Shown: one piece after another, positions 322 to 29,619 of the stretch
Layout of the letters: every line of letters starts with the position of its first letter
Numbering within the stretch: position 1 is the stretch's first letter
Assembly (NCBI GenBank): GCA_936914905.1
Contig: CAKZGI010000028.1
Location: forward strand, 1 to 32,063
DNA: 32,063 bases
Direction of reading: 5' to 3'
Source of the DNA: an uncultured Trichormus sp.
Lineage (GTDB): Bacteria; Cyanobacteriota; Cyanobacteriia; Cyanobacteriales; Nostocaceae
Position numbers and translations under genes: made by a program
The notes under the pieces: model-generated
Databases searched by the model: none
What the model was told of the DNA's origin: nothing
What the model saw: the letters and a program-made list of their open reading frames with translations, nothing else

Positions 322-888
322 ATGATAACTCAAGAAGCTAAACGTGCATTAGGAGTATTTCCTAAAACTCAAGAATTAGAACAAGCGATTAAGGAATTAA
401 AAGCTTCCGACTATCCGATGGAGAAAGTTTCCATTATTGGCAAAGATATAAAACATAATAGTAACCTTGGGGAAGGACAAATAAGTAATCAAATTGGTAA
501 TCAAGATGTTAATACTACGGCTGCAGTGGAAGATACACTGACTTCAACTACCTGGGGTAGTTTGTTAATTGGACTGAGTGGACTGGCTATACCGAGTTTA
601 GGAGCGATACTGGCAGCAGGTTCTGTAGGTGTAGCCTTGGTGGCTAGTATTGCAGGTGTGACTGTGGGAGTAACCGCAAATGAGAATTTAGTCAGGTCTT
701 TAAAGGATTTAGGTATTCCCGAAGACAGAGCAAGAATGTATAGCGATCGCCTCCAGCAAAGTTATTATTTAATTATTCTTGATGGTACAGATACAGAAAT
801 CGATTGTGCTGAAGCAATATTAGGTCAGCAAGGTATCCAAAGTTGGGGTGTTTTTGATTATCCAGCAACTTCAATATTGCAGTTATAA
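322..888 (+). CDS. General-stress-protein-17M-like membrane protein
   Basis: This 188-residue protein starts at an ATG preceded by GAGG at 313-316. Residues 1-45 form the domain seen at the start of cyanobacterial proteins related to B. subtilis general stress protein 17M: Lys-Arg-Ala-Leu-Gly-Val-Phe, an amphipathic helix, then a Val-Ser-Ile-Ile-Gly-Lys-Asp strand. Residues about 80-120 are a glycine- and alanine-rich hydrophobic stretch that could form a membrane hairpin. The C-terminal part has the family pattern Leu-Gly-Ile-Pro-Glu-Asp-Arg-Ala-Arg-Met-Tyr, then Tyr-Leu-Ile-Ile-Leu-Asp-Gly-Thr, and ends near Gly-Ile-Gln-Ser-Trp-Gly-Val-Phe. The biochemical role of this family is not established; a link to stress is suggested by the name only. 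It appears complete and monocistronic, followed by a strong hairpin at 912-944. Confidence 0.75.
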   Translation: MITQEAKRALGVFPKTQELEQAIKELKASDYPMEKVSIIGKDIKHNSNLGEGQISNQIGNQDVNTTAAVEDTLTSTTWGSLLIGLSGLAIPSLGAILAAGSVGVALVASIAGVTVGVTANENLVRSLKDLGIPEDRARMYSDRLQQSYYLIILDGTDTEIDCAEAILGQQGIQSWGVFDYPATSILQL

Positions 889-994: not shown

Positions 995-1315
995 TTGATG
1001 CGTATACAAAATCATCTTGATGAATACGAAAAATTTATTAATCATTTCTTTAAGCTCTATCAAGCCAGTTTTAATTATCAAGTCTTATTAAACGATATTG
1101 ATATTACGGCTTCTTGGGAAGTTATTGAAAATTTGAATCTTGTAGATGGAAATAGTAAAATACTAGATGATTTACCGCACATTATTGAATTAATTTCTAA
1201 TGAATTTGACCCAAAATTAGCTGAGAAATCTCGTTCCGAAGATGCCGTTATTATTCAAGGTAAATTATTAAACACAGCTATTGCTAATTGGTCACACCAG
1301 CAACAACTCATTTAG
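995..1315 (+). pseudogene. phaE: Truncated PHA synthase subunit PhaE (C-terminal part)
   Basis: PhaE is the non-catalytic partner of PhaC in class III polyhydroxyalkanoate synthases. This 106-codon frame resembles only the C-terminal part of cyanobacterial PhaE. The recognisable stretch is Lys-Ser-Arg-Ser-Glu-Asp-Ala, then Ile-Gln-Gly-Lys-Leu-Leu-Asn-Thr-Ala and Gln-Gln-Gln-Leu, near residues 78-105. Cyanobacterial PhaE is normally about 300 or more residues, so most of the protein is missing. The ATG at 995 is probably an internal codon or chance start. The TAG at 1313-1315 lies directly against the first PhaC-like codons in the same frame, which suggests that a deletion joined the end of phaE to the start of phaC. 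Identification rests on short motifs and on the phaC gene just downstream. Confidence 0.6.
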
Positions 1316-2368
1316 CATTTTTTGCCTATTCTCAACTGTTTCAATCAAATTAATCCGATTAATATTGTCAATTATCTGTATGCAGATAAACTTAAGGTAG
1401 GAGTAACACCAAGAGTAGAAGTATACAAGGAGGATAAAGTGGTATTATACTATTTCTTCCCTGGTTGAAATTCTTTAAACATCCCAATATTGATTGTTTA
1501 TGCTCTAGTCAATCGTCCCTACATTGTTGATTTATAAGAGGGACGTTCTTTTGTTTCTAACTTGCTCAAACTTGGTTTCGATGTCTACTTAATTGATTGG
1601 GGATATCCTGGTGAGGATGAACGCTGGCTGACTGTGGATAAATATATCAATGATTATATCAATAATTGTGTAGGTATAATATCCAAAATCCATGATCTTG
1701 CACAGATTAATTTATTGGGAATATGTCAAGGTAGAACATTCAGCCTTTGTTAGAGTTCTCTGTATCCAGAGAAGGTAGAAAACCTAATTACGATGATTAC
1801 TCCAGTGGACTTTCATGTTAATGATGGACTCCTGAATATTTGGAGTGGATCTACATTAGGTTATCAAGCTTTAGATATAGACGTAATAGTTGATACTTTG
1901 GGGAATATTCCTGGTAATTTACCTAATTATGTCTTTTTAATGTTGAAACCATTTCAATTGGGAATTAAAAAATATATTGATTTGCTAGAGATTGTTGAAT
2001 CTGAAGAAAAACAGCTGAAGTTTCTGAGAATGGGAAAATGGATTTTTGATAATCCTGATCAAGCTGGTGAAACATTTAGACAGTTTATTAAGGATTTTTA
2101 TCAACGAAGTAAATTGATTCAAGGTGAATTAAAAATTGGTAAACAGCGAGTTAATTTAGCAAATATCCAAATACCAATTTTAAATATTTATGCAGAACAG
2201 GATCATTTAGTCCCCTCAGCTTCATCTTTAGCACTTGACAAATATATTCCTAGTGTTGATTATAAAGTGCATTCTTTTCCAGTTGGACATATTGGAATTT
2301 ATGTAAGTGCTAAGGTGCAGAGAGACTTACCTTTAACTATTGGAAATTGCTTAAAGATGCGAATGTAA
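1316..2368 (+). pseudogene. phaC: PHA synthase class III catalytic subunit, three stops
   Basis: PhaC polymerises (R)-3-hydroxybutyryl-CoA into PHB on the granule surface. A single frame runs from about 1316 to the TAA at 2366-2368 without frameshift. It contains Leu-Val-Asn-Arg-Pro-Tyr, Val-Tyr-Leu-Ile-Asp-Trp-Gly, the lipase-like box Gly-Ile-Cys-Gln-Gly with the nucleophilic Cys, the catalytic Asp (Ala-Glu-Gln-Asp-His-Leu-Val-Pro) and the catalytic His (Gly-His-Ile-Gly-Ile-Tyr). Three in-frame stops break it: TGA near 1466, TAA near 1535, and TAG at 1751-1753, just after the nucleophile motif. No ATG is left at the N terminus. Since all catalytic residues survive, inactivation looks recent. 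The family is about 350-380 residues, close to the 350 codons here. Confidence 0.88.
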
Positions 2369-2449
2369 AAATTAAAAATAGTAGAAAATCTTAGAGGATG
2401 TTTGAAAACTCCTTAGTGATGTATCAAAAACTTTTAGATACCTCTAAAT

Positions 2450-2512
2450 CCCCCTTGTTAAGGGAGACTTTGATTCCAGTTTCCCCCTTAACAAACGGGG
2501 GTTAGGGGGGAT
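2450..2512. repeat. Imperfect inverted repeat, CCCCCTTGTTAAGGG type
   Basis: CCCCCTTGTTAAGGG at 2450-2464 is repeated in inverse orientation at 2485-2501 with a 2-nt insertion, followed by GGTTAGGGGGG. A shorter relative with the same GGGGTTAGGGG tail is at 14154-14182. These are dispersed intergenic repeats of the kind common in Nostocales. The rest of 2369-2700 shows nothing else except two copies of TCCAACCTACATTA near 2621 and 2690. Confidence 0.6.
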
Positions 2513-2701
2513 AAATAAGTGCCTAAGGTCACAGCCAGAAACTTTTAAAAAAAAGTCTTAGATTTGCTTGAGCGACAGGGTAAACCATATATATAGATGA
2601 TGTTGAGTTTCCTCGCGTCAATCCAACCTACATTAATATTAATCTCATCACAAACCAGCGAACACGTCTAAGGAGATGGCTCTCCAACCTACATTATTGG
2701 T

Positions 2702-2965
2702 TTATGATTTACGCATCATTTTAAAAAAACTATCCCATAATTTTCTTAGAGTGTCAATGGAGAAAAGATTCACCTATTATTGAAAATCTAATGAGTTTCT
2801 CACTAAGTCTTATTGTAGTTTTATACTTTGTTATAAATTCTCTGGTGGATTTGATAAGTGCAGATTCTGCATACTTGATAGAGTTGAATTCAAATTATTG
2901 AAAGCCAAACTTTGAAATTCGTTTAATTGCCTGAAAAACTGATCAATATTATTCAATAATTCCAT
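2702..2965 (-). pseudogene. Phasin-like protein remnant, four in-frame stops
   Basis: A frame of 87 codons runs from the ATG at 2965 to the TAA at 2702-2704 on the - strand, with AGGAG 7 nt before the start. There is no frameshift, but codons 45, 52, 63 and 64 are TAA, TAA, TAA and TAG. The residues between them still read as an amphipathic, Gln/Asn-rich helical protein: Asn-Ile-Asp-Gln-Phe-Phe-Arg-Gln-Leu-Asn-Glu at the start, Asp-Leu-Val-Arg-Asn-Ser-Leu-Asp-Phe-Gln in the middle, and Leu-Trp-Asp-Ser-Phe-Phe near the end. Size, composition and position between phaC and phaA suggest a phasin, the small amphipathic coat protein of PHB granules. The family assignment is inferred from context. 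The existence of a decayed gene is well supported by the ribosome binding site and the preserved frame. Confidence 0.55.
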
Positions 2966-3141
2966 TGTGATTACTCCTATTGGCTGATATTATTCTATCT
3001 ATTCGACTTCAACTTTAAAGTTACTAGATATGTCAGATTTTATTTATTTATGAAGATTGATTTATGAATGAATATTTTTTCATATTGTGAAATTGAAAAT
3101 AGTGGAATTTAGAGTTTAACAACCATAGCCATAATACCCAT

Positions 3142-3170
3142 ATCCCCGACTTATCAAAGAAGTCGGGGAT
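3142..3170. repeat. Palindrome ATCCCCGACTT, GGGGATCT family
   Basis: Arms 3142-3152 (ATCCCCGACTT) and 3160-3170 are perfectly complementary around a 7-nt loop. This is the second of three copies in the window (also 912-944 and 9758-9790). It lies about 50 bp before the thiolase remnant. Confidence 0.75.
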
Positions 3171-3216
3171 CTATCATCTATCTCCTCTAGAGGGATTTGT
3201 ATTAGTTTGATGGAGC

Positions 3217-4418
3217 AGTATTCAAGAAGCTTATATTGTCTCAGCAGTCCGTACACCACTGGGTAAATTTGGAGGTATTTTAGCAAATTTGTCATCAGTA
3301 GAGTTGGGAGCGAGCGCAATGGGTGCGGCTTTAGAAAAAGCGGGAATTTCGGGGAATGCTTTAGAATTGTATATTTTTGGTAATGTACTCAGAGCCGGAC
3401 ACGGACAGTCATGACCCCGTCAAGCAGCTTTCAAAATCGGGATTCCTGACACAGTAAACGGTTATGCGGTGGATATGGTGTGTTCGTCAGGAATGATGAG
3501 CGCCATCAACGCTGCTACACCGATTCGTTCGTTCTGGTGAAGCTGATTTAGTGCTCACTGGGGGTATGGAATCTATGTCTCAGACAGAATTTTTACTATC
3601 AAATCGCGCTCGCTGGGGATATAAATTCTTACAGGAATCCCCAGAAGAACTGAGGGATATTTTATTTGATGACGGACTCACAGATCCGATCAGTGGGGAA
3701 AGAATGGGAGAACAAGCGGAACGGTTAGCAACTACTTACCAAATCAGACGGTTTGAGTGAGATGAAATTGCTTTTTATTCACAACAACGAGCAACAGAAG
3801 CTACCGCAAACAGCTTTCTTAAACAGGAAATCATTCCCATTACAATCCAGGGAAAAAAAGGGCAGCAAATTATCGCTCAAGATGAAGGAATCCGCCCAGA
3901 AATGAGTGTAGAAAGTCTAGCAAAATTGAAACTAACTTTTAGAGAAGATGGAGTTTTCACTGGTGGTAATAGTAATCAAATATCCGATGGTGCAGCAGCT
4001 TTAGTTTTGGCAAGTACAACAGCAGTAGAAGGTCATCAACTCTAACCTATAGCCAGGTTAATAGGTGGAATATGGACAGGTCGAGAAGCTTGGAGATTTC
4101 CCAAAGCACCGATTTTAGCTATAAAAAAAACTGTTAGAAAAGCTGAAAATGAAAATTAACGATTTTGATTTATTTGAGAATAACGAAGCCTTCGCTCTGA
4201 GTAACGTATTATTTAATCGCTTATTAAGAACTCCCGAATAAAAATAAAACGTTTTTGGGGGTGTGATTGCACTAGGACATCCTCTAGGAGCTTCAGGAGC
4301 GCGAATTTCAGTTACCCTACTCAACGCCTTACAGTAAAAAAACGGGCATTTAGGATTAGCCGTAGTTTGTCATGCTAGTGGTGGCGGAACTGCTATCGCA
4401 CTAGAAAGACTCAGGTAG
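3217..4418 (+). pseudogene. phaA: Acetyl-CoA acetyltransferase (PHB beta-ketothiolase), broken
   Basis: The intact enzyme condenses two acetyl-CoA to acetoacetyl-CoA, the first PHB step. Recognisable thiolase blocks are Glu-Ala-Tyr-Ile-Val-Ser-Ala-Val-Arg-Thr-Pro at 3226, the acyl-Cys motif Met-Val-Cys-Ser-Ser-Gly-Met near 3477-3497, Gly-Gly-Met-Glu-Ser-Met-Ser near 3560, Asn-Glu-Ala-Phe-Ala near 4180, Ala-Leu-Gly-His-Pro-Leu-Gly-Ala-Ser-Gly near 4268, and a C-terminal Val-Cys-His-Ala-Ser-Gly-Gly-Gly near 4365. Lesions include a TGA at about 3413, a frameshift near 3530, a TGA at 3758-3760, a TAA near 4044, and further stops and shifts at 4155-4345. The original start codon is not in frame with the body. 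It is clearly dead, and more damaged than phaC or phaB. The TAG at 4416-4418 is the natural end. Confidence 0.88.
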
Positions 4419-4497
4419 AAACTACTTTCTTCTTCCTTCTTCCTTCGCCGAGTGTCCCGAAGGGATAGATGCGAACGTGGTTGATTCAATCAGTAAC
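4419..4497. other. phaA-phaB spacer with a CCCGAAGGG-type repeat
   Basis: The 79-bp spacer contains a TTCTTCC-rich run and CCTTCGCCGAGTGTCCCGAA followed by GGGAT. It resembles the abundant short interspersed repeats of Nostoc genomes. No promoter or terminator is evident. Confidence 0.4.
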
Positions 4498-5220
4498 ATG
4501 ACATCTCTAGGTTTAGAAAACTAAGTAATCTTAGTCACAGGTGGTAATCGAGGCATAGGAAGTGCGATCGTCAACTTGCTTTTAGAGTTAGGAAGCAAAG
4601 TAGCTTACACCTACCGCAGCAACCACACTCACCAACTTGGCACCCTCGCAATCCCCGCAGATGTCACCAATAAAACCGCTATGGCACAAGTAGCAGAACA
4701 GGTAGAAAACAAACCCGGTACAATTTACGGAATTGTCCCTAATGCCGACATCACCAAAGATAACTTTTTCCCCAAGCTAACAAGTGCAGACTGGGATGCA
4801 GTCATGGATACCAACTTAAAAGGAGTCTATAAAACCCTCAAACCAATTATCCCCAAAATATACGATCACCTTTCTGGTTCAGTAGTTTGTATTTCCTCAA
4901 CTTCCGGCGAACAAGGCAACCTCGGTCAAACTAATTATGCACCATCCAAAGCAGTGGTAATAGGCTTAACTAAATCCTTAGCCAGAGAAGCAGCCATGTA
5001 TGGAGTGCGGGTAAATTTAGTAGCACCGGGATTCATTGAAACTGATATGCTTAACCCCATTTCCGAGAAAGTGAAACAACGGATTTTATCGGAAATTCCC
5101 CTATCACGCTTTGGTAAACCCGAAGAAGTCGCTTGGGCTGTACCCTTTCTCCTCTCACCCTTAGCCAGTAGCTACATTACAGGCACAGTTATGGGAGTTA
5201 ACGGCGCTCATCATACTTAG
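4498..5220 (+). pseudogene. phaB: Acetoacetyl-CoA reductase, nonsense at codon 9
   Basis: The intact enzyme is an SDR that reduces acetoacetyl-CoA to (R)-3-hydroxybutyryl-CoA with NADPH, the second PHB step. The frame runs from the ATG at 4498 to the TAG at 5218-5220 (240 codons, normal length) with one in-frame TAA at 4522-4524. After it come the Rossmann motif Thr-Gly-Gly-Asn-Arg-Gly-Ile-Gly, the structural Asn in Asp-Thr-Asn-Leu-Lys-Gly, the catalytic Ser in Cys-Ile-Ser-Ser-Thr-Ser-Gly, and Tyr/Lys in Asn-Tyr-Ala-Pro-Ser-Lys-Ala. The usual Asn-Ala-Gly-Ile motif reads Asn-Ala-Asp-Ile here, a second likely damaging change. The only later start, TTG 4576, would lose the cofactor motif. It follows phaA in the classical phaAB order. 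Confidence 0.88.
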
Positions 5221-5290
5221 AAGGGTGTGGGCGCAGGGCGAAAAATTTATTCTTTCTCCTGACTCCTGACTCCTGAACTCCTTAAAAAAA

Positions 5291-5911
5291 ATGATTACAG
5301 AAACTACGACAGAAGAAAAATATTATAGATGTAGATGGCTTAAACATACGCTATATAACAGCAGGTAATAATGATCCACCTTTGGTCTTACTACATGGAG
5401 TTGGTGAAAGTGTTATTGATTGGTCTTGGGTACTACCCGAATTAGCAACATAGTTAACCCCATTCTGTCTAATTTGACCTTGCCTTTGTACGGAGAGTTA
5501 GCGATTACCTGGTGCAAAAGTTCTATAGGAGCAACACAGCGGGCTTAGTCACGGGCATTACTGCTGTTTAACCAACCTGTTAAATTCCCTCCTTAATGGA
5601 TAGGAGAACAGGAGCGTATGGCAAAAATACCGGGCTTGTTAGAGGCTGGTTTATCTTCACTCCGCGCCCAATTAAATCTATTTGTACAGCATCAAATATT
5701 ACTTGATTCTCTCCCACAATTACAAATCCCAACTCTAATTATGTGGGGAATAAATGATTTAGTTTTGCCAAATAATCAAGCTGAAAATGCTGTTAGTCAT
5801 CTCCAACAAGGACACTTGGCTTTAATACCCAACTCTAGAGATATACCCCAAGTTGAACGTCCTGAATTATTCACTGCTGAATTAAACAAGTTTCTTGATT
5901 CTGTTGAATAA
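5291..5911 (+). pseudogene. Alpha/beta hydrolase remnant, nucleophile region deleted
   Basis: The N-terminal part reads Ile-Asp-Val-Asp-Gly-Leu-Asn-Ile-Arg-Tyr, then Leu-Val-Leu-Leu-His-Gly-Val-Gly-Glu-Ser (the oxyanion-loop motif after strand 3). It ends in a TAG near 5452 after a frameshift close to the ATG at 5291. From about 5460 to 5610 no frame resembles the family, so the Gly-x-Ser-x-Gly nucleophile elbow and part of the cap are gone. The C-terminal part (5618-5911, 97 codons) is open. It contains Pro-Thr-Leu-Ile-Met-Trp-Gly-Ile-Asn-Asp with the acid residue, but Arg-Asp-Ile-Pro-Gln-Val-Glu where the catalytic His (Gly-His-Leu/Ile-Pro) is expected. Substrate unknown. It sits between phaB and an SDR gene on the same strand. 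Confidence 0.75.
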
Positions 5912-5916
5912 AAGGA

Positions 5917-6936
5917 GTAGCATCGATCCAATTAAAACCAATTAATAAACAAGTCGTTTCCGTCGTTGGTGCTTCTAGCGGTATTGGCCGAGAAACAGCT
6001 TTACAATTTGCTAGACGGGGTGCAACAGTAGTTGTTTCCGCCCGTAGCGAATCAGGGTTAAAGTGTCTGGTGGAAGAGATTCGCCGTTTTGCGAGTGAAG
6101 CAACTTCTATTGTTACCGATGTGCAGGAATTTGAACAGGTGAATGCGATCGCAGATAAAACTGTGGAGATATTTGGACGGCTTGATACTTGGGTTCATGC
6201 CCCTGCAATTGGACTTTTTGCCACTTTCGACAAAACAACACCAGCCGAATTTAAGCACGTTATTGACGTTAACTTAGTTGGTCAAGCTTATGGCGCAATG
6301 GCAGCTTTACCCCATCTGAAGCGAGAAGGAAGGGGTGCGTCAATTCATATTTCTTCCATGGAAGGTAGGCGATCGCTTCCTTATCAAAGTGCTTACTCTG
6401 CCCATAAACATGGAATTGAAGGCTTTGTGGAGGCTATGCGTGTGGAATTACAACATGATAAATGGCCGATTAGTCTCACCAGTATCAAACCTGCGGTAAT
6501 TAATACCCCATTTTCGAATAATAGTTTAACTAAGTTAGGCGTAAAACCAGCCGGAATACCACCTTACTACGACCCCAAACTATTAGCTGATGCTGTCCTC
6601 TATCCAGCAGAACACCCCACCCGTGACCTTTTAGTGGGTGATGTAGCCAAGGCGCTGGATTTATTACAACGGATTTCCCCAGGGTTAGCAGATTCACTGT
6701 TACTGCTCATAGGTTTCGATTTACAACATAGTTCTGAGCCAAAATCTGAAAACGCACCAAATAACTTTTATCAGCCTATTCCTGAAAACGACAGAATTGA
6801 TGGAGACTATAAAACCCAAGTCATACCTAGCGTTTTTGATACCCTGGATAAAAATCCCTTGTTGCAATGGGGAGCATTAGCCGCTACAGGTATTTTAGCC
6901 TTGTTAGCAGCACACACTTTGAAAAACAGAGGGTGA
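5917..6936 (+). CDS. SDR-family oxidoreductase lacking a standard start codon
   Basis: The frame is open from 5908 to the TGA at 6934-6936. It carries the NAD(P) motif Val-Val-Gly-Ala-Ser-Ser-Gly-Ile-Gly (about 5968-5994), Asp-Val-Asn-Leu, the catalytic Ser in His-Ile-Ser-Ser-Met-Glu-Gly and Tyr-Ser-Ala-His-Lys (Tyr and Lys of the SDR triad). A hydrophobic C-terminal helix near residues 318-335 suggests membrane attachment. The problem is the start. A Shine-Dalgarno-like AAAGGAG at 5911-5917 is followed by GTA GCA TCG ATC CAA, with no ATG, GTG or TTG before the glycine motif. The first usable start, GTG 6070, would delete the cofactor site. Either the start was mutated (recent pseudogene) or a rare ATC/ATT start is used. 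Substrate unknown. It is downstream of the PHB remnants but is not a PHB enzyme by motif. Confidence 0.6.
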   Translation, partial: VASIQLKPINKQVVSVVGASSGIGRETALQFARRGATVVVSARSESGLKCLVEEIRRFASEATSIVTDVQEFEQVNAIADKTVEIFGRLDTWVHAPAIGLFATFDKTTPAEFKHVIDVNLVGQAYGAMAALPHLKREGRGASIHISSMEGRRSLPYQSAYSAHKHGIEGFVEAMRVELQHDKWPISLTSIKPAVINTPFSNNSLTKLGVKPAGIPPYYDPKLLADAVLYPAEHPTRDLLVGDVAKALDLLQRISPGLADSLLLLIGFDLQHSSEPKSENAPNNFYQPIPENDRIDGDYKTQVIPSVFDTLDKNPLLQWGALAATGILALLAAHTLKNRG

Positions 6937-7081
6937 TATCATGTCTAGTGAAACACTTATCATTTAGGGAGCAGTGGGAGATAGTACCACATTTAAGTTT
7001 TGTATGAGTCCTGACTACTCTTAATAGGATGATTAAAAAGTCATGCTGTAGCTAGCTTTCCGCAGGGTACGTAGCGCAAGC

Positions 7082-7238
7082 TATCAGATTGTGGTTGATC
7101 AGCATGGTGGTGTATTGAAATATTGAAATATTGAAATATAGATCAAAAGAGGGAAGAGGTACAGAATTTTAGATTGAAATCCCTTCTACAGCAGACGTTA
7201 GGAATAAAAGGGGTCTGGTAGTGTCAACCCAAAAATGA
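7082..7238 (+). pseudogene. Histidine kinase C-terminal (ATPase domain) fragment
   Basis: Tyr-Gln-Ile-Val-Val-Asp-Gln-His-Gly-Gly (7083-7112) matches the helix after the G2 box of HATPase domains. After an ATTGAAAT repeat tract, another frame reads Ser-Lys-Glu-Gly-Arg-Gly-Thr-Glu-Phe, then TAG, then Ile-Glu-Ile-Pro. That is the usual end of the domain with TGG (Trp) changed to TAG. It ends at the TGA 7236-7238. The rest of the kinase is absent. From 6937 to 7080 only a GCTAGCTTTCCGCAGGGTAC-type interspersed repeat (7033-7075) is seen. Confidence 0.6.
7114..7137. repeat. Three tandem ATTGAAAT units
   Basis: Three perfect 8-bp units (7114-7121, 7122-7129, 7130-7137) are followed by a partial unit. 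They lie inside the kinase fragment and probably caused its frame change by slippage. Confidence 0.85.
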
Positions 7239-7363
7239 CAGGTAAAAGCAGGCAGGGGGAGCAGGGGAAGAATAGAAATTTTTTTCCTGTCATCACCCAT
7301 TTGAATGAAGATTGCATTCCCTGTGGTACGCTATTTCCTTTAGATAGTGTCGAGGTAGAGAAG

Positions 7364-8419
7364 ATGTCTAAACTGCGGGTGGGGTTGCTGTTTGGTGGAC
7401 GTTCTGGAGAACATGAAGTTTCAATAATTTCCGCAAGGGCGATCGCAAATGCTTTAAGTGCAGAAGAAAATAGTCATAAGTATGAAATTCTGCCATTCTA
7501 CATCCAAAAAGATGGGGTTTGGCAAGCTGGGGAAGTTGCACAGCAAGTTTTAACATCAGGTGTAGCTAAAGACAATCCAGGCAATAGAGGTAACTTATGG
7601 CAGTTTCCACCGCAAACAGCAGAAATTGATCTTTGGTTTCCAATTCTCCACGGTCCAAACGGTGAAGATGGGACCATTCAAGGCTTACTAACTTTGATGC
7701 AAGTTCCCTTTGTTGGTTCTGGGGTGTTAGGTTCAGCAACGGGAATGGATAAAATCGCTATGAAGACTGCTTTTGCTCAAGCAGGACTACCCCAGGTAAA
7801 ATATAAAGCATTAACTAGGGCGCAGATTTGGTCCAATCCTTGTGTATTCCCAAAACTGTGTGATGAAATAGAAGCAACATTAGGCTATCCCTATTTTGTT
7901 AAACCTGCTAATCTGGGTTCATCGGTAGGTATTGTCAAAGTGCGATCGCGCCAGGAATTAGAAGCAGCTTTAGATAATGCCGCAACCTATGATAGACGCA
8001 TCATTGTTGAAGCCGGAGTGGTCGCTAGAGAAGTGGAATGTGCCGTTTTAGGTAACGATAACCCCAAAGCCTCAATTATTGGTGAAATTACTTTTGATAG
8101 CGATTTTTACGATTACGAAACTAAATATACCCAAGGTAAAGCTGATTTATTTATTCCTGCACACCTGCCAGAATCAGTTGTTCAACAAATTCAAGAAAAA
8201 GCATTACAAGCATTTACAGCCGTTGATGCGGCTGGTTTAGCCCGGGTAGACTTTTTCTATGTAGAAGCTACCGGAGAAATCTTAATCAACGAAATTAACA
8301 CCTTACCAGGATTTACATCCACCAGTATGTATCCTCAACTTTGGGCAAATACTGGTCTTTCTTTTCCTAAACTAGTAGACCAACTAATTAAACTAGCAAT
8401 GGAAAGACATTCTAATTAG
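7364..8419 (+). CDS. ddl: D-alanine--D-alanine ligase
   Basis: This cytoplasmic ATP-grasp enzyme joins two D-alanines for the peptidoglycan pentapeptide. The 351-residue product from the ATG at 7364 has normal family length. The open frame extends upstream to 7235, but that extension is not family-like and GAGG at 7352-7355 supports 7364. Motifs in order are [13 protein letters not shown] at the N terminus, Leu-His-Gly-Pro-Asn-Gly-Glu-Asp-Gly, the ATP-binding Gly-Ser-Ser-Val-Gly, Glu-Val-Glu-Cys-Ala, the omega loop Asp-Tyr-Glu-Thr-Lys-Tyr, Arg-Val-Asp-Phe-Phe, and the metal-binding Glu-Ile-Asn-Thr-Leu-Pro-Gly-Phe-Thr. No lesion is seen, as expected for an essential gene. It stands alone, with a kinase fragment before it and a truncated IS after it. 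Confidence 0.97.
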
Positions 8420-11667: not shown

Positions 11668-13698
11668 ATGAACGAAAAAGTAAAATCCGGTTCACGGAAT
11701 GTGGCAATTGTTGGACCATATTTAAGTGGAAAAACCACATTACTAGAAAGTTTGTTATTTGTCACCGGAGCGATTTCTCGCAAAGGTATCGTTAAAGATC
11801 GTAACACAGTTGGAGACAGCGCCAACGAAGCACGGGACAGACGCATGAGTGTGGAGGTATCTGCAGCTTGTACCGAATATGAAAATACACGCTTCACATT
11901 TATAGATTGTCCTGGTTCTGTAGAATTTGCCCAAGAAACATACAATGCTTTAATCGGAGTTGATGCCGCAATTGTCGTTTGCGAACCAATCCGCGACCGA
12001 GTTCTTACCCTGGCACCATTATTTAAATTCCTTGATGATTGGGAAATTCCCCATATCGTCTTTGTGAATAAAATGGACAGGGCAAATATTCATGTTTTAG
12101 AAAAATTAGAAGCCCTAAAAGCAGTTTCCAGCCGTCGTTTAGTTGCTCACCAATACCCAATTATGCAAGGGGAAAAACTGATAGGATTTATTGATATGGT
12201 AAGTCAACAAGCTTACCAATATCATGCCGGCGCAGCTGCTGATCCTATACCTTTTCCAGAAGAATTAAAAGCAGAAGAACATATAGCCAGAGCAGAAATG
12301 TTAGAAGCTTTGGCAAATTTTGATGATCATTTACTCGAAGAACTTTTAGAAGACATCGAACCACCCCAAGAGGAGATTCTCAAAGATTTAAAACTAGAAT
12401 TAGGTGCAGATTTAGTTGTACCTGTTTTCTTTGGTGTGGCGGAACAAGATTTTGGTGTTAGACCTTTATTAGAAGCTCTACTGCGGGAAGCACCAGAACC
12501 AGAAATGACAATGGAACGGCGCTTGAAAACAATCAGCGATAGTCCTTTAGCGCAAGTTCTCAAAACTTTCTACACTCCCCAAGGTGGTAAACTTTCTCTG
12601 GTGCGAGTATGGCAAGGAACATTAACTGATGGTATAGTTTTAAATGGCGTGCGTGCTGGTGGTCTTTACCGCTTAATGGGACAACAACAACAGCAAATTA
12701 ATCAAGCTGTGGCTGGGGAAATTATCGCCATCAGTCGGTTGGAAGGAATTAAAACTGGCGAGACAATTTCGAAAAATTCCCATTTAAAAGAATTACCAAA
12801 ACCGGAAAAATTAGAACAAGTTTTTGCTTTAGCAATTACACCAGAAAAACGCAATGATGAGGTAAAACTGAGTGCGGCTATTAGCAAATTATTAGAAGAA
12901 GATTGTTCTCTGGCTTGGGAACAACACGATGATACTCATGAAGTGATACTTTGGGGACAAGGGGAAATACATTTACAAGTTGTATTAGATAGGTTGCGTC
13001 GCAAATATAATTTACCAATGTCTACTCATCTTCCCCAAGTTCCTTATAAAGAAACCATTCGCAAACCTGTAAATTCAGTTCATGGACGTTATAAACACCA
13101 AAGTGGTGGACATGGACAATTTGGGGATGTGTTCTTAGATATTCAACCTTTACCCAGGGGAGAAGGTTTTAATTTTAATGAAAAAATTGTGGGTGGTGTT
13201 GTTCCTAGACAATATATTCCTGGTGTAGAAATGGGAGTGCGGGAATTTCTCACACATGGACCTTTAGGTTACCCAACGGTGGACGTAGCAGTGACATTAA
13301 CCAATGGTTCTTATCATACCGTTGACAGTTCGGAACAAGCTTTTAAACAAGCTGCACGTCTAGCAATGCAGATGGGGATACCCCAAGCGCAACCTACCCT
13401 GTTAGAACCAATTTTAAAGGTAGATGTGAATACTCCCAGTGAGTTTACTTCTAAGGTTCTGCAGCTTTTGAGTGGTAAACGTGGGCAGGTTTTGGGTTAT
13501 GAGGGTAGACAAGATTGGCCAGGTTGGGATAATGTTTCTGCATATTTACCCCAAGCGGAAATGCAGAATTTTATTGTAGAATTGCGATCGCTCACTTTAG
13601 GCGTCGGTTCTTTCCATTGGGAACAAGATCATCTGCAAGAAGTACCAAAAAAGCTTGCTGAACGAATTCTCACTACTAATGGTGGTAAGGGTAAATAG
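11668..13698 (+). CDS. Elongation factor G-like translational GTPase (EF-G2 type)
   Basis: The 676-residue protein has a strong ribosome site (AAGGAGGG at 11656-11663). GTPase motifs: P-loop Gly-Pro-Tyr-Leu-Ser-Gly-Lys-Thr at residues 16-23, Asp-Cys-Pro-Gly-Ser at 80-84, and Asn-Lys-Met-Asp at 134-137. Domains II to V follow, with the domain IV Tyr-Lys-His-Gln-Ser-Gly-Gly-His-Gly-Gln-Phe-Gly-Asp near 470. In canonical EF-G the third motif is Asp-x-Pro-Gly-His and the His helps GTP hydrolysis. Ser at 84 is the mark of the EF-G-like subfamily (mycobacterial FusA2 type), whose role is unclear and is not normal translocation. It is therefore probably not the main fusA. The gene is intact. A diverged copy of its last codons lies at 13981-14088. 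Confidence 0.9.
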   Translation: MNEKVKSGSRNVAIVGPYLSGKTTLLESLLFVTGAISRKGIVKDRNTVGDSANEARDRRMSVEVSAACTEYENTRFTFIDCPGSVEFAQETYNALIGVDAAIVVCEPIRDRVLTLAPLFKFLDDWEIPHIVFVNKMDRANIHVLEKLEALKAVSSRRLVAHQYPIMQGEKLIGFIDMVSQQAYQYHAGAAADPIPFPEELKAEEHIARAEMLEALANFDDHLLEELLEDIEPPQEEILKDLKLELGADLVVPVFFGVAEQDFGVRPLLEALLREAPEPEMTMERRLKTISDSPLAQVLKTFYTPQGGKLSLVRVWQGTLTDGIVLNGVRAGGLYRLMGQQQQQINQAVAGEIIAISRLEGIKTGETISKNSHLKELPKPEKLEQVFALAITPEKRNDEVKLSAAISKLLEEDCSLAWEQHDDTHEVILWGQGEIHLQVVLDRLRRKYNLPMSTHLPQVPYKETIRKPVNSVHGRYKHQSGGHGQFGDVFLDIQPLPRGEGFNFNEKIVGGVVPRQYIPGVEMGVREFLTHGPLGYPTVDVAVTLTNGSYHTVDSSEQAFKQAARLAMQMGIPQAQPTLLEPILKVDVNTPSEFTSKVLQLLSGKRGQVLGYEGRQDWPGWDNVSAYLPQAEMQNFIVELRSLTLGVGSFHWEQDHLQEVPKKLAERILTTNGGKGK

Positions 13699-14612: not shown

Positions 14613-15448
14613 CATTGGTGACAAGTTGAGGAAAAGAAGAAATTGTCAAGCGTGGTATTTGGATAGGTCAAAAATCGTGATCAACTCAGTGTAGACAAAT
14701 AATTTAGCGATTGAGACAAGCAATGACAAGCAGCCGAAAAACCAATCGAGACCACGGCAACAAGAAACAGAGACCAATGGTCGAATATGAAGTAATAGCC
14801 GAGCAATTGGAAAGATGACTGACACCAGCCATTACAAATCAAGAAAATTACTACCGAAAACTAGGACTCAGAGAACGGATACTGAATTTACCGTTGATGA
14901 TGGGTGCGGTGTTGACCTTACTGTGGCGAGATATAGGAGGAGTCAGAGAAGTGACAAGAATGTTAGCTAGAGATGGTTTTCTGTGGTGTAATCCCACAAA
15001 AGTTAGTCAAGGTGAATTGAAGATGCTTTTAATACAGTCAAAAGACTCTTGGGTTTAAGTTATTTATGAACAGGTTCAATCAATGGAATTAAATTACAAA
15101 TTTGGGCAAATTGGTGATTTTATAGTGTTTTACTAGATTTAGTAGATTTAGTTGATGCCGTAGCAGATGAACTTTCTCTGCCTTTTGATGAGATTTTATT
15201 AGAAATGATTTATCGTGGTCTTTATCATTTTACTATGGCTCATCAAAAAGGTAAGGCAACAGATCCTGTTAGATATTTTGCTGACCCTCTAAATCGAGAT
15301 TTAGGTATTATCAAACAGAAGCGAAAACCAAGTGTTAAGTTAGTTGTCGCTCCTTTTCCTGATCTTCAACGTGGGACCGACCGGTTTTTTCGAAAATTCT
15401 CCCAAAGCCTCTTGACAAAAGACTTTCAGCCTTAACTTGTCACAAATG
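14613..15448 (+). mobile_element. Internally deleted IS4-type insertion sequence
   Basis: Terminal inverted repeats are CATTGGTGACAAGTT at 14613 and AACTTGTCACAAATG ending at 15448 (one mismatch). The element is 836 bp, too short for an intact IS4-family transposase gene. The middle of the transposase, including the expected DDE catalytic core, is deleted. The right end enters the EVE-domain gene. A truncated relative is at 8452-8781. Confidence 0.85.
14723..15435 (+). pseudogene. IS4-family transposase, core deleted
   Basis: The N-terminal part (ATG 14723: Met-Thr-Ser-Ser-Arg-Lys-Thr-Asn-Arg-Asp) has a TGA near 14816. It continues as Leu-Gly-Leu-Arg-Glu-Arg-Ile-Leu-Asn-Leu-Pro and Cys-Asn-Pro-Thr-Lys-Val-Ser-Gln. 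Near 15012-15020 the sequence jumps to the C-terminal region, Asp-Ala-Phe-Asn-Thr-Val-Lys-Arg-Leu-Leu-Gly-Leu-Ser-Tyr-Leu, then TGA where Trp is expected. An open tail (15205-15435) ends Pro-Phe-Pro-Asp-Leu-Gln-Arg. About 200 central residues are missing, so the protein cannot be active. Confidence 0.85.
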
Positions 15449-18355: not shown

Positions 18356-19639
18356 TTAATTCTTGTTTGTAGTCTTACTATTTTTAGCAGCTTGTTTACC
18401 CAAAATTTCCACAGCTTTGGCAAATTGGGGATCTTCTAAAGTGGCCAGTTTATCCCGTTCCTTTAACCATAAATCTTGTCTTTGGGCATCAGTTAAATCC
18501 ACTTTTACATCAGGATCAATACCATGCTTATTAATATCTTTACCGCTAGGGGTATGATACTTAGCAATAGTCACTGCTAACCCTGAACCATCTTCCAAAG
18601 GTCGTACAGATTGCACTAAACCCTTACCAAAGGTTTGCGTACCCACTATGGTCCCACGTTTATTATCCTGCAAAGCACCGGAAAGAATTTCACTAGCACT
18701 AGCTGAACCCTTATCAACTAACACCACTAAAGGTTTAGTAGTCAAAGCACGACCTTTAGCAATTTCCCTCTCCTGTTCACCTTGACGGTCAATAGTAGAG
18801 ACAATAGTTCCTTTATCTAACCACATTCGGGCAATGTCCACACTGGAGAATAATAAACCACCAGGATTGCCCCGCAGATCCAAAATATAACCAGATACGT
18901 TTTTAGTCTCTAATTTACTAATTGCATCTTTCATTTCCTTGGCAGCATTAGCACTGAACTGATTCAGACGAATATAACCAAGATTAGCCGCTGGAGTTTG
19001 TTTCTCAGAATACTTAACCGGATGGATTTCAATCTTGGCCCGTGTGATATCAAATTGTTTTTTCTGACCATTCCGCAAAATCTTCAATCTGACCTTAGTT
19101 CCCGCTTCACCGCGAATCAAAGATACAGCCTGGTTAGTATCCATGTCTTCAGTGCTTTTGCCATCAATTTCCAGGATCACATCCTTAGCTATAACTCCCA
19201 TTTTAAAGGCGGGTGTATCCTCAATCGGGGCAATCACAACTAATTGCTTAGTTTTTTCATCCTGACTGATGGTGATACCAATCCCTGTGAGTTCTCCAGA
19301 GGTATCAACCTGCATATTCTTGAATTCCTCTGGGTTCATAAACCGGGTGTAAGGATCTTCTAGCTTTTTCAGCATTTCCCTGATCGACTTATAAGCTTCC
19401 TCCTGGTTGGTGTAGGACTTGCTTAAATATTCTTTACGAACAGCTTGCCAATCTACCTGATTAAACGTCCCGTCTACATATTGACGGTAAACAATTTGCC
19501 AAACTTCGTCTATCAATTCCTTGGGGCTTGCTTTAAATAAAGCCTGACCACGGGAGTGAATGCCAAGACTAGTAACAGCAATTGTAGAAAGCGTCACTGC
19601 CGTAGCACCTAAAACAAGTCTACTTTTTGTAATTACCAT
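18356..19639 (-). CDS. Carboxyl-terminal processing protease, S41 family (CtpC-like)
   Basis: Start chosen at the ATG 19637-19639 (Met-Val-Ile-Thr-Lys-Ser-Arg-Leu-Val-Leu-Gly), which gives a normal signal or anchor helix. The open frame to 19708 adds an unlikely leader. The mature part starts Ala-Ser-Pro-Lys-Glu-Leu-Ile-Asp-Glu-Val-Trp. A PDZ domain follows at about residues 100-190 (Gly-Ile-Gly-Ile-Thr-Ile, Asp-Val-Ile-Leu-Glu-Ile-Asp-Gly). The protease core has Leu-Asp-Leu-Arg-Gly-Asn-Pro-Gly-Gly-Leu, the catalytic Ser in Gly-Ser-Ala-Ser-Ala-Ser-Glu and the catalytic Lys in Phe-Gly-Lys-Gly. Such enzymes act in the periplasm or lumen. CtpA matures the D1 protein of photosystem II, but this sequence looks closer to the CtpB/CtpC paralogues, whose substrates are less clear. 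427 residues, intact. Confidence 0.9.
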   Translation of the reverse strand: MVITKSRLVLGATAVTLSTIAVTSLGIHSRGQALFKASPKELIDEVWQIVYRQYVDGTFNQVDWQAVRKEYLSKSYTNQEEAYKSIREMLKKLEDPYTRFMNPEEFKNMQVDTSGELTGIGITISQDEKTKQLVVIAPIEDTPAFKMGVIAKDVILEIDGKSTEDMDTNQAVSLIRGEAGTKVRLKILRNGQKKQFDITRAKIEIHPVKYSEKQTPAANLGYIRLNQFSANAAKEMKDAISKLETKNVSGYILDLRGNPGGLLFSSVDIARMWLDKGTIVSTIDRQGEQEREIAKGRALTTKPLVVLVDKGSASASEILSGALQDNKRGTIVGTQTFGKGLVQSVRPLEDGSGLAVTIAKYHTPSGKDINKHGIDPDVKVDLTDAQRQDLWLKERDKLATLEDPQFAKAVEILGKQAAKNSKTTNKN

Positions 19640-19746
19640 AATGACAGCTGTGTCAGAGGGAAAATTTATAGTCAGTATGCCCAATCTAACACAGGGTAAA
19701 CAATTCAAGGTTCAAAATTCAAAATTCAAAGTGAAGAAAATTCAGA

Positions 19747-22425
19747 TTACACTAGGGGCAATGTGACGGTGACAGTTGTACCATGACCTAGTTCACTAAC
19801 GATGTTCAAATGCCCACCATGTAAATCCACACATTTTTTAACAACGACTAGTCCTAGTCCGGTTCCAGCAATGTTACGGACATTCTGACCCCGATGAAAT
19901 GGCTCAAATATTTGATTTTGGTCAGTTGTGGAAATCCCGATGCCGTGATCGCTAATTTGAATAATTACTTGATTATGATCAAACTTGAGGCAGAAATCAA
20001 CCTGAGTTCTTTCTGGGGAATATTTAATGGCGTTTGACAAGAGATTTCCCAAAATTGAGCGCAATAACTTTTCATCCAGATATGCTTGTTGCCATTGTTC
20101 TATGGTTTTACACCAGGCGACGCTATCACAAGTAAAGGTGAGTACGTATCCAGAACCGTTACTCAGACGGATTTCTTCCACAAACTGACGACAAAATTTT
20201 TCTAAATCCAGCCATTGGGGATTAAATTCTAAGTTACCAGTTTCTGCCCGATTGATGGTGAGGATGTCATCGAGAAGCTGCACCATATTTTTCACTGAGT
20301 CTTGAATGCGCCGTAAGTTGCGCGATCGCTTTTCTCCATTTTCCCAGGCATGGGGAGAATTTTCTAATAACTGGGCAGCAGCTAAGGCTGTACTCAGTGG
20401 TGTTCGAAATTCATGGGATGCCATTGAGAAGAAGCGAATTTTCATAGCACTTAATTCTTTTTCTCGCTCCAATGCAAGTCTCACTTCTTCTAATCGTTTT
20501 CGTTCCGTAATATCACGTGAATTCACCACAATGCTTGTTAATTCTGAATTATCCACAAATTTCTGGCTGATGGCTTCTAGAGTCCGCCAAGAATCATCTT
20601 GATGACGATAACGAAATTCTACAGGTAAGGGTACATCTGGATTTTTAATAGCATTGGTAATGTTGTAACAAGTGGCAACAAAGTCATCAGGATGAATCCA
20701 GGCAAAAAAGTTTTGATTAATCAATTCCACAGACTGATAACCCAAAACCTTTTCCACAGATGGACTCATGTAGTGAATAGTTCCGTCTGTATCGAGGATG
20801 GTAATTACATCTAGGGCATTTTCAATTAACGAGCGAAATCTTTCTTCACTACAACGTAGTGCTTGTTCAATGCGCTTACGTTCGCTAACATCTCGCTGGA
20901 TTGAAATCCAGTGCGTATAATAACCAGTTTTGTCAGCTACAGGAACTATACTGGATTCTACCCAAAATTCCGAGCCATCTTTGCGATAGTTGATTGCCTC
21001 CACTGTCACAGATTCCCTACTAAATAGGGCGGTTCCTACTTGATCCAAGACAGCGCGAGTAGTTTTCGGTCCTTGGAGAATACGGGGGGTTTTACCTAAC
21101 ACTTCTTCCGGGCTATACCCAGTCATCCGAGTAAAGGCTTCATTAATATAGAGAATGCGGGGAACTGGTTCATCAATGGGTTCTGCTTCTGTAATCAAAA
21201 CGGCATCATTGGTGTTAACGACTACAGACTGAAGAAATCGCACTTGCTCGGCTTGCCGTTTCTGTTCGGTTATGTCGGCTACAACTGCCACCATACCACT
21301 AATCACTCCTTCAGTGTTGTGTAGGGGAGCAGCAGAGAACACAATATCAATTAGCGAATTGTCTTTTTTGCGTTGACGTACTTCTACACTAGGAGGAGTG
21401 ATACCTTGGATGACGGTTTCCTTAATCTTTTCATACTCCTCCAACTCTGCCGACATAATCGGGTTGGGCTGATCTAATACTTCTGTTTCACTCCAACCAA
21501 ACATTCTTTCGGCTGCGGGATTCCACATTTTGATATTGTTGTGTAAATCCAAGGTGAAAATAGCACGGGGTGAGGCGGCGATGAGAGATTGTAAGGTTTG
21601 GTTAGTGTGGCGGAGTGAAGCTTCAGTGCGCTGACGGTCGACAATTTCAGCCCGCAAAGATGTATTGGTTCTGGCTAGTTCTTCTGTGCGTTGTTGTACA
21701 CGATGTTCTAGTTGAGCATTGAGCTGTTGCAACTGTTCGTAGAGTTCTGATTGTTGAATGGCGATCGCTACCTGGGTGGCTAGTTGTTTCATTAACTCAA
21801 CTTCCCAGGTTTGCCATTGACGCACATTACTGCATTGGTGAGCAATTAACAATCCCCAAAGATGGGGAGAAGGGTGGAGGGATTCAGAGTTATCAGTTTC
21901 TCTAACTTCCCTGACTTCCTGCAAAATCGGTACTACCAATTTAGCTTTTACACCGAACTGGTTCAAAAATCCTGCCAAACATGAATTTACATCGCTTTCA
22001 ACATTGGTAATAGCAGTAGTTTTTCCTTGAGTGTAGGCGTGATGATATTCTCTAGGAAAGACTTCGGCTGGAAATATTCGACCCAAAATACAAGGATAAT
22101 CAGGTGATACGGTTTCCGTAATGGCGCTACCGGTTCCATCTTCCCAAAGTCGATAAATAAGCACTCTGTCAGCTTGAAGAAACTGTTTTACCTCTGCAAC
22201 TGTGGTGACTAGTACTTCTTCTAAGTTCAGAGATTTGCGAATATGGTGAGCTATTTGGCTAACTAGACGTTCTCTTTCTGTCTGTTGTCGGAGGATATTT
22301 CCTGTCTGTTGTCCTTGAGTTATTTGTCGTTGCAGTAAGTAGTAAGTTGTGAAAAGGATGATAATTAATAATCCAATTGCAATACCTAATGGATTAAGCA
22401 TGGGGCAGGGGTTTAGGATTATCAT
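19747..22425 (-). CDS. Membrane-anchored sensor histidine kinase, GAF and three PAS domains
   Basis: 892 residues. One N-terminal membrane helix (about 10-30) is followed by a GAF domain (about 48-215), a coiled coil (215-275), PAS 1 (283-400), PAS 2 (405-525), PAS 3 (535-650), HisKA with His in Met-Ala-Ser-His-Glu-Phe-Arg-Thr-Pro-Leu (about 668), and an ATPase domain with Asn-Leu-Leu-Ser-Asn-Ala-Ile-Lys-Tyr, Asp-His-Gly-Ile-Gly-Ile and Gly-Thr-Gly-Leu-Gly-Leu. The GAF domain ends in the cyanobacterial Leu-Ile-Ala-His-Gln-Cys-Ser pattern but lacks the Cys-His bilin site, so it is probably not a cyanobacteriochrome. PAS 2 has Gly-Lys-Thr-Pro-Arg-Ile-Leu-Gln-Gly, LOV-like in form but without the flavin-binding Cys. 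No receiver domain, and no cognate regulator adjacent. Intact. It lies 107 bp upstream of the protease gene on the same strand. Confidence 0.92.
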   Translation of the reverse strand: MIILNPCPMLNPLGIAIGLLIIILFTTYYLLQRQITQGQQTGNILRQQTERERLVSQIAHHIRKSLNLEEVLVTTVAEVKQFLQADRVLIYRLWEDGTGSAITETVSPDYPCILGRIFPAEVFPREYHHAYTQGKTTAITNVESDVNSCLAGFLNQFGVKAKLVVPILQEVREVRETDNSESLHPSPHLWGLLIAHQCSNVRQWQTWEVELMKQLATQVAIAIQQSELYEQLQQLNAQLEHRVQQRTEELARTNTSLRAEIVDRQRTEASLRHTNQTLQSLIAASPRAIFTLDLHNNIKMWNPAAERMFGWSETEVLDQPNPIMSAELEEYEKIKETVIQGITPPSVEVRQRKKDNSLIDIVFSAAPLHNTEGVISGMVAVVADITEQKRQAEQVRFLQSVVVNTNDAVLITEAEPIDEPVPRILYINEAFTRMTGYSPEEVLGKTPRILQGPKTTRAVLDQVGTALFSRESVTVEAINYRKDGSEFWVESSIVPVADKTGYYTHWISIQRDVSERKRIEQALRCSEERFRSLIENALDVITILDTDGTIHYMSPSVEKVLGYQSVELINQNFFAWIHPDDFVATCYNITNAIKNPDVPLPVEFRYRHQDDSWRTLEAISQKFVDNSELTSIVVNSRDITERKRLEEVRLALEREKELSAMKIRFFSMASHEFRTPLSTALAAAQLLENSPHAWENGEKRSRNLRRIQDSVKNMVQLLDDILTINRAETGNLEFNPQWLDLEKFCRQFVEEIRLSNGSGYVLTFTCDSVAWCKTIEQWQQAYLDEKLLRSILGNLLSNAIKYSPERTQVDFCLKFDHNQVIIQISDHGIGISTTDQNQIFEPFHRGQNVRNIAGTGLGLVVVKKCVDLHGGHLNIVSELGHGTTVTVTLPLV

Positions 22426-24952: not shown

Positions 24953-25408
24953 TTACACATTCAAAATAATCCGAATCCGTTCTTTAACTACTCGGTCTGA
25001 TTCTTGCATCATAGCTTGGTCAAGGATGGTATTAATTTCAACAGTAGCAATTCCTCCCAAAGAAACCGCCGCCGCATAACGCAACGCCCAATCTTCAGCA
25101 TTTAATAATGCCCATGAAAGCTTATAAATTGCTCTTTGACTCTTTTCAGGGTCGGTAGTGGTAATCACCATCTGTTCTAAGCCCCTAGCTGCCACTCGAC
25201 GTACATTTCCTTGGCAGTGATTAGCAACTTCTACACCCACAACTTCCACAAGTAAATCTAAAGCGCGATCGTCACCGAGTTCAGCTAGAATGCTGATAAT
25301 ACCTGCCTGTATGTTTTGATTTGGGCAACTGTGATAAGCCTCAATCAAAGATTCCACACTGAGGAATGCAAGTTGGTCTAATGTTATGTCTGGTTGCAGA
25401 CTTATCAT
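24953..25408 (-). CDS. pecF: Phycoerythrocyanin alpha-subunit lyase/isomerase subunit PecF
   Basis: PecE and PecF together attach phycocyanobilin to PecA and isomerise it to phycoviolobilin. This HEAT-repeat protein carries the motif Asn-His-Cys-Gln-Gly-Asn, known as important for PecF activity, followed by Val-Arg-Arg-Val-Ala-Ala-Arg-Gly-Leu, then Glu-Asp-Trp-Ala-Leu-Arg-Tyr-Ala-Ala. The ATG at 25408 gives 151 residues. A TTG at 25486 would give 177, but its extra residues are not HEAT-like. Neither start has a clear ribosome site. The N terminus is shorter than I expect for PecF, so 5' damage is possible; a MTTE-stop reading lies near 25520. The stop is 5 bp from the convergent Uma2 pseudogene end. 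Last gene of the pec operon. Confidence 0.8.
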   Translation of the reverse strand: MISLQPDITLDQLAFLSVESLIEAYHSCPNQNIQAGIISILAELGDDRALDLLVEVVGVEVANHCQGNVRRVAARGLEQMVITTTDPEKSQRAIYKLSWALLNAEDWALRYAAAVSLGGIATVEINTILDQAMMQESDRVVKERIRIILNV

Positions 25409-25545
25409 ATCTGTCAGGTATGGTAATTGGTAATGGTAATTATTAATTATGGTTCTTCCGTTCTTTTTATGGAAAAACAGGTTCAAAACCCTTGAAAGCC
25501 TTATTCCGTAGTCATTTCATTTAGAATCAGGGAATAATTCTTTAT

Positions 25546-25566
25546 AACCCTTCCCCCCTAAGGGTT
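25546..25566 (-). other. Hairpin between pecE and pecF
   Basis: AACCCTT (25546-25552) pairs with AAGGGTT (25560-25566) around a C-rich loop. In the transcript it lies in the 211-nt gap upstream of pecF. It could affect mRNA stability; there is no U tract. Confidence 0.4.
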
Positions 25567-25619
25567 TTGTTGTAATCAATCCTTAATCACCATAAAAACA
25601 ACGCAAGAGCCTTGATTAT

Positions 25620-26405: not shown

Positions 26406-26434
26406 GTCAGAATCAGAATTTACAGAATTAAAGA

Positions 26435-26477
26435 ATGAACAGGATGGATTTGGAGATGATTAATTTATCCTGTTCAT
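26435..26477 (-). other. Hairpin between pecC and pecE
   Basis: ATGAACAGGAT (26435-26445) and ATCCTGTTCAT (26467-26477) form an 11-bp perfect stem with a 21-nt loop in the pecC-pecE gap. It probably separates high expression of the structural genes from low expression of the lyase genes, as partial terminators do in other phycobilisome operons. It also resembles the interspersed repeat at 14524-14557. Confidence 0.55.
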
Positions 26478-26520
26478 CTCATTGGTAATTCGTCATCAAA
26501 TTACCAATTAACAATCACTT

Positions 26521-29568: not shown

Positions 29569-29592
29569 TTTTCACATTCAGCAAGAGGTCTA
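29546..29592. mobile_element. 47-bp palindrome with the MITE end sequence
   Basis: TAGACCTCTTGC (29546-29557) and GCAAGAGGTCTA (29581-29592) are perfect 12-bp arms. The sequence matches the ends of the element at 16754-16920. It could be a minimal solo remnant of that family, and on the + strand could end transcription of the response regulator. Confidence 0.65.
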
Positions 29593-29619
29593 CCTGGGTA
29601 CGGCTTGGGATTTTACACC

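Follow-up and report, generated by a model that had tools for sequence, protein, structure and literature searches.

Has the cyanobacterium from which contig C28 was assembled lost the ability to store carbon as polyhydroxybutyrate (PHB), and if so, when did the loss occur? Contig C28, 32,063 bases long and referred to here as the window, belongs to a 5.87-Mb assembly made up of 485 contigs and carries near its start a set of decayed PHB genes. The original prediction, made from the letters alone, had read them as remnants of phaE, phaC, phaA and phaB lying in order on one strand, each separately disabled. We compared this locus with the intact genes of Anabaena lutea, which served as the reference for lesions, and with the corresponding locus in a sister genome of the same genus (G001). 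The window organism is presumably a cyanobiont of Azolla, and the sister appears to be 'Nostoc azollae' 0708 or a near equal; 16S sequence is matched at four places in the three contigs of the sister, once only partially, and the 0708 genome paper reports four rRNA clusters, with one chromosome and two plasmids (Ran et al. 2010, PMC2900214). It is highly probable that the window holds a dead ancestral chromosomal PHB cluster with a one-chain synthase, whose function was lost before the split from the 0708-like sister and which has drifted neutrally since.

Between positions 995 and 5220, remnants of the synthase gene, phaA and phaB follow one another along the plus strand, far beyond chance, and the order of the whole cluster is that of the intact frames in A. 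lutea. The remnants share 82-89% DNA identity with the A. lutea genes and, the hydrolase apart, cover nearly their whole length. The predicted order and strand were thus correct for the synthase, phaA and phaB, and the single nonsense codon of phaB as well as the many lesions of phaA were borne out (Table 1). Overlooked were a pseudogene on the minus strand, presumably phaP to judge from its position and sequence, the continuation of decay into a gene that we take from its sequence to encode an alpha/beta-hydrolase and into a short-chain dehydrogenase/reductase (SDR) gene, and the probable breakage of the pathway before the sister split.

Scored against A. lutea, the sister locus has six stops and three frameshifts in the synthase gene phaEC, one stop and a 912-base insert in phaP, four stops in phaA, two stops and two frameshifts in phaB, three stops and three frameshifting changes in the hydrolase gene, and a 1-base deletion in the SDR gene together with loss of its 3' end (window 6785-7088 is missing in G001). 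Several lesions are identical in both genomes, namely the stops at phaP codon 45, phaA codon 371 (TAA) and phaB codon 8, and, in the hydrolase gene, a 1-base insertion, a 238-base deletion and the stop at codon 286. Because these lesions are identical in the sister, phaP, phaA, phaB and the hydrolase gene must have been broken in the common ancestor. The synthase gene, in which the two genomes share the position of a stop though not the stop codon itself, was probably already broken then too. By the shared lesions, the chromosomal PHB pathway had been lost before the two cyanobiont lineages diverged. As a separate observation, the insert in the sister phaP (L035 8972-10147) looks by eye like a decayed transposase, and the window copy has no insert.

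The substitution pattern was examined in six genes, with changes since the split polarised with A. lutea. The nonsynonymous to synonymous counts (N:S) were 111:28 in the window and 108:24 in the sister, while differences from A. lutea common to both genomes gave 227:330. Relative to a neutral ratio of 2.95, which we set by hand from per-gene values of 2.76-3.80 with an assumed transition weight of 2, the p values were 0.17 for the window, 0.07 for the sister and 3.5e-64 for the shared differences. The SDR gene of the window has accumulated 15 nonsynonymous and no synonymous changes over the 287 codons compared; the sister phaP, with its small count, gave 4:3. Disabling lesions and a neutral substitution pattern are thus both present in the cluster, the SDR gene having a lost start codon as its only lesion. 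The earlier suggestion of relaxed selection on the whole pathway, as opposed to one deletion event, is upheld by these counts, and we conclude that the pathway probably died before the sister split and has drifted neutrally since.

The synthase gene itself proved different from what had been predicted. Translation and lesion alignment show that a single frame of 458 codons (the last being the stop) runs through 995-2368, in one register with no frameshift, and is colinear with the intact fused frames (454-471 codons) of relatives outside the genus. A separate, truncated phaE at 995-1315 was therefore rejected, that segment being the 5' part of one frame shared with the colinear intact fused proteins; the look of a short phaE followed by phaC arises because the first stop falls at 1313. 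The three stops previously assigned to phaC (1466, 1535 and 1751) are real, but the fused gene has four, the one at 1313 being the apparent end of 'phaE'. Read through three stops, the window copy scores 457 bits with TIGR01836 (cut-off 365.3). Three columns, Cys, Asp and His, which we take to be the class III catalytic triad, are invariant in 16 rows and are kept in the window translation as GICQG, EQDH and GHIG.

The amino-terminal module of the fused proteins derives from PhaE. In the A. lutea protein, residues 10-118 match TIGR01834 (E 7.4e-10; sub-threshold at 38.8 bits, the cut-off being 154.95), as does the fused protein of another contig of our assembly, C469 (E 2e-7, well below the family cut-off). 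The module aligns to positions 182-289 of the PhaE profile, under that family's cut-off, and fused amino termini aligned to full PhaE by hhalign with a probability of 98.7 over 111 columns. A search of the window's own module with PF09712 gave no match at E <= 0.001, the sole match in the assembly being the C469 fusion (24.5 bits, under the cut-off of 25.7); the window module is assigned to PhaE because it is colinear with the intact fused proteins. A conserved stretch at the PhaE carboxy terminus is present in five full and six short PhaE rows and in none of seven fused rows (two of them from the same genome). Judged by its sequence, phaEC represents a naturally occurring one-chain class III polyhydroxyalkanoate (PHA) synthase, in which the last PhaE helix and the amino-terminal leader of PhaC are gone, and the intact fused proteins presumably act as single-chain synthases.

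To place this form, we searched 145 genomes of the family for the synthase. A match at E <= 0.001 was found in 26, and 19 exceeded the cut-off; the seven genomes below it were left unclassified. Besides the window genome and G001, the 19 include five with intact fusions running to 454-471 codons (G056, G106, G030, G011 and G124). In six more, phaC is accompanied by a short PhaE frame (149-217 codons); five encode a PhaE of 340-351 residues, and in one (G025, L024) the locus begins at a contig edge. The five fused loci come from the records of Nostoc sp. T09, A. lutea FACHB-196, Calothrix sp. FI2-JRJ7, LEGE 11386 and Fortiea sp. LEGE XX443; one continuous fused frame was found in five of the seven named-record loci checked, and L046 had no scored frame. 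Short PhaE matches full PhaE with an E value of 4e-49. A DNA tree was built from the PhaC part, with 19 rows (four of the five canonical genomes among them, L012 being absent). Its eight fused rows fall, together with the unclassified G025, into a single clade (99/99), within which the window and its sister group with A. lutea (100/100), and short-PhaE systems branch between the canonical and the fused ones. Two of the loci deserve separate mention. A Cyanocohniella record (L044, near 6001-6333) has a 133-codon PhaE-like frame with which phaC is not continuous in the stretch covered, and L019 (866-1516) has a 217-codon PhaE frame adjoining phaC, intermediate between full-length PhaE and the forms of 149-156 codons.

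The assembly contains a second pha locus. Contig C469 (7,893 bases) carries intact phaEC, phaP, phaA and phaB, and its synthase scores 504 bits with TIGR01836. Its identity with Fortiea sp. LEGE XX443 lies at 88-93%, and with the window at 71-76%; a recent duplication of the window copy was rejected, since C469 groups with Fortiea at 100/100. Selection on the C469 branch was compared over six genes, four of them pha genes: for phaEC, phaP, phaA and phaB the N:S counts were 43:30, 8:5, 12:22 and 9:12, and on the Fortiea branch 38:26, 4:2, 4:17 and 11:8. By this pattern the C469 pha genes are functional still, or were until recently. The intact phaP-type protein matched nothing in a search of NCBIfam profiles. 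Contigs C129, C469 and C206 are chained by exact 55-base end overlaps, as in neighbours of an assembly graph, and the other end of C206 is shared with C41. C129 also has mobile-element remains, and frames that we presume to be ParA- and ParB-like from their sequence. No record covering 80% of the query was found when a plasmid collection was searched with the first 8000 bases of C206 and with C469. This plasmid-like chain (L072, L004, L047) further contains a crtO-like gene and extra copies of ndhK, ndhH, ndhI and cox1.

Several observations weigh against the account given above. The stops at phaEC codon 255 (TAG here, TAA in the sister) and phaA codon 341 (TAA here, TGA in the sister) could have arisen independently. 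Taken singly, phaA (26:12) and phaB (9:4) of the window lie slightly under the neutral ratio, per-gene counts being small. The tree program flagged five rows, including those of the window, the sister and A. lutea, for odd base composition; the AlphaFold2 model of the C469 fusion is poor (mean pLDDT 43.7); and the C469 genes are intact. Decay of each gene independently, in the window strain alone, would explain why damage varies from gene to gene and why many lesions are strain-specific, but the sister-identical lesions in phaP, phaA, phaB and the hydrolase gene contradict it as the sole account and make it very improbable. Sequencing errors, or readthrough of the stops, might be suggested by four stops without a frameshift in phaEC; we rejected this idea, which is scarcely credible given the identical lesions in a second genome, the nearby frameshifts and 238-base deletion, and the neutral N:S.

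Whether the window strain has lost PHB depends on the origin of C469, with its intact and constrained synthase copy. The somewhat favored explanation is that C469, C129 and C206 belong to another cyanobacterium collected along with the fern, the strain itself being without a PHB synthase. The likeness of C469 and C129 to Fortiea, the lack of such a locus in G001, an estimated contamination of 3.5%, the 485 contigs and foreign DNA elsewhere in the assembly all fit this origin. That foreign DNA is C286 (L049, L051), whose genes, rpoB with in-frame stops among them, we presume to be plastid-like; C286 probably represents the plastid of the host fern, binned together with the symbiont, and fits DNA prepared from fern. 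On the other side, rpoB was found on C291 and the plastid-like C286 only. A 19-kb stretch of Fortiea chromosome gave no match of at least 100 bases above 80% among the 49 listed (best 40 of 282 candidates), a small test that neither shows nor excludes contamination, and a plasmid from a minor community member could still account for these contigs. A 16S search meant to detect a second cyanobacterium was uninformative, none being found in the assembly among the best 25 of 57 candidates. It is possible, if doubtful, that PHB was instead kept, a Fortiea-type pha locus on a plasmid of the cyanobiont having taken over as the chromosomal copy decayed. The lack of a match to the Fortiea chromosome stretch would agree with this, as would the intact C469 genes, whose four-gene N:S of 72:69 is far from the neutral value of about 3:1 and near the 57:53 of Fortiea. 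So would the linkage of C469 to the presumed ParA/ParB frames of C129 and, through C206, to C41: the latter two share, besides their exact 55-base end, 90% over 175 bases, and C41 has matches of 83% to contig C3 of the sister and of 86% to its chromosome. The neighbours in the chain are also damaged as in an eroding genome, with a stop in a hydrolase gene, a stress gene split between frames and an interrupted ndhH. Against a takeover stand the much closer identity of C469 to Fortiea than to the window, its absence from G001, the foreign C286, a mobile-element stretch of C129 whose longest match is to Fortiea (81% over 821 bases) compared with 73% over about 550 bases for this assembly, and the extent of the chain, seen over some 29 kb only. 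A broader scenario is slightly more tentative still: that the vertically inherited fern symbiont swapped its dead pathway for the Fortiea-type plasmid one, both having one-chain synthases of a form with a single origin in Nostocales, through trimming of PhaE and its fusion to PhaC.

In the account that we consider best, the ancestral chromosomal cluster of the Azolla cyanobiont would have comprised phaEC, phaP on the minus strand, phaA, phaB, the hydrolase and the SDR gene, its synthase having been made by joining the carboxy-terminal part of PhaE to PhaC. The pathway would have been inactivated in the common ancestor of the window strain and the 0708-like sister, and both lineages would then have drifted without selection on the cluster. 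The loss may have been tolerated because a sheltered host made a PHB store unnecessary, and, as predicted, it may fit a host-supplied lifestyle. Good evidence supports the predicted loss of carbon storage in the sister, because both of its TIGR01836 matches lie in one dead gene; for the window assembly the loss hinges on C469, which on its face is the intact second pha locus that the original prediction named as refuting it, but which may be foreign DNA. Among the matches listed from the open-access literature, nothing apparently relevant concerned PHB in the Azolla cyanobiont, and no natural PhaE-PhaC fusion was apparent in titles or abstract openings. The words 'hydroxybutyrate' and 'hydroxyalkanoate' are absent from the main text of five cyanobiont genome papers (PMC2900214, PMC12376041, PMC12362246, PMC10095879, PMC6786969), as is 'PHB' from that of the first, the 0708 genome paper.

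Table 1. Features of the PHB cluster and its upstream flank in the window. Reference codons are those of A. lutea.
Feature	Position	Strand	Description
PHB cluster	995-6936		Synthase, phaP, phaA, phaB, hydrolase, SDR; all broken, except SDR, which is unconstrained
phaEC pseudogene	995..2368	+	Class III PHA synthase, C-terminal part of PhaE joined to PhaC; 4 nonsense codons, 0 frameshifts; first ATG 998
PhaE-derived N-terminal module of phaEC	998..1340, end approximate	+	Colinearity with A. lutea protein
phaEC nonsense codon TAG	1313..1315	+	Reference codon 109
phaEC nonsense codon TGA	1466..1468	+	Reference codon 160
phaEC nonsense codon TAA	1535..1537	+	Reference codon 183
phaEC nonsense codon TAG	1751..1753	+	Reference codon 255; sister TAA, same codon
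phaP (phasin-like) pseudogene	2705..2965	-	4 nonsense codons, one identical in sister; 82.8% DNA match to whole A. lutea gene
phaA (acetyl-CoA acetyltransferase) pseudogene	3220..4418	+	6 nonsense codons, 2 frameshifts; family named via C469 homologue
phaB (acetoacetyl-CoA reductase) pseudogene	4498..5220	+	1 nonsense codon at 4522, before GxxxGxG motif; family named via C469 homologue
Alpha/beta-hydrolase-like pseudogene	5291..5914	+	238-base deletion, 1-base insertion, 3 nonsense codons, 39-base gap at end
SDR-family gene	5926..6936	+	0 internal stops; start ATG -> ATC
Stress-protein-like gene (YflT domain), intact	322..888	+	Upstream flank, outside dead pathway

Elsewhere in the window, open genes stand amid decay (7235-8419, 11668-13698, 18356-22425, 24953-27354 and 28876-30843), their frames including a D-Ala-D-Ala ligase, an EF-G-like protein, an S41 protease, a PAS/GAF histidine kinase, HEAT-repeat and phycobilisome-linker proteins, a response regulator and GcpE. 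Positions 15138-15448 form an inverted 86% match to sister DNA that also aligns near 8.4-8.8 kb of the window, and are a dispersed repeat. An Rfam scan of the window at gathering thresholds gave no match.

In its decay, the window locus resembles the pseudogenes of 'Nostoc azollae' 0708, whose genome paper reports 31.2% pseudogenes (Ran et al. 2010, PMC2900214), in that it is also dead in G001. In its encoded enzyme, it resembles canonical class III systems (PhaE plus PhaC; TIGR01834 and TIGR01836) in having a PhaC domain above the TIGR01836 cut-off and phaA and phaB as neighbours. Unlike them, the fused form is one chain of about 460 residues with no separate PhaE subunit, and it is without the amino-terminal half of PhaE, the carboxy-terminal LPTRxEVDE...LRKEVKNLKK stretch and the amino-terminal leader of PhaC. 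The series from PhaE of 340-351 residues through 217 codons and 149-156 codons to the fusion makes the question of the PhaE core testable; a fusion with a minimal core points to the indispensable part of PhaE and offers a one-gene synthase for probing its role. The short-PhaE systems of Nostocaceae share the same reduced PhaE core with the fused form, but differ from it in consisting of two genes and in keeping the carboxy-terminal stretch of PhaE.

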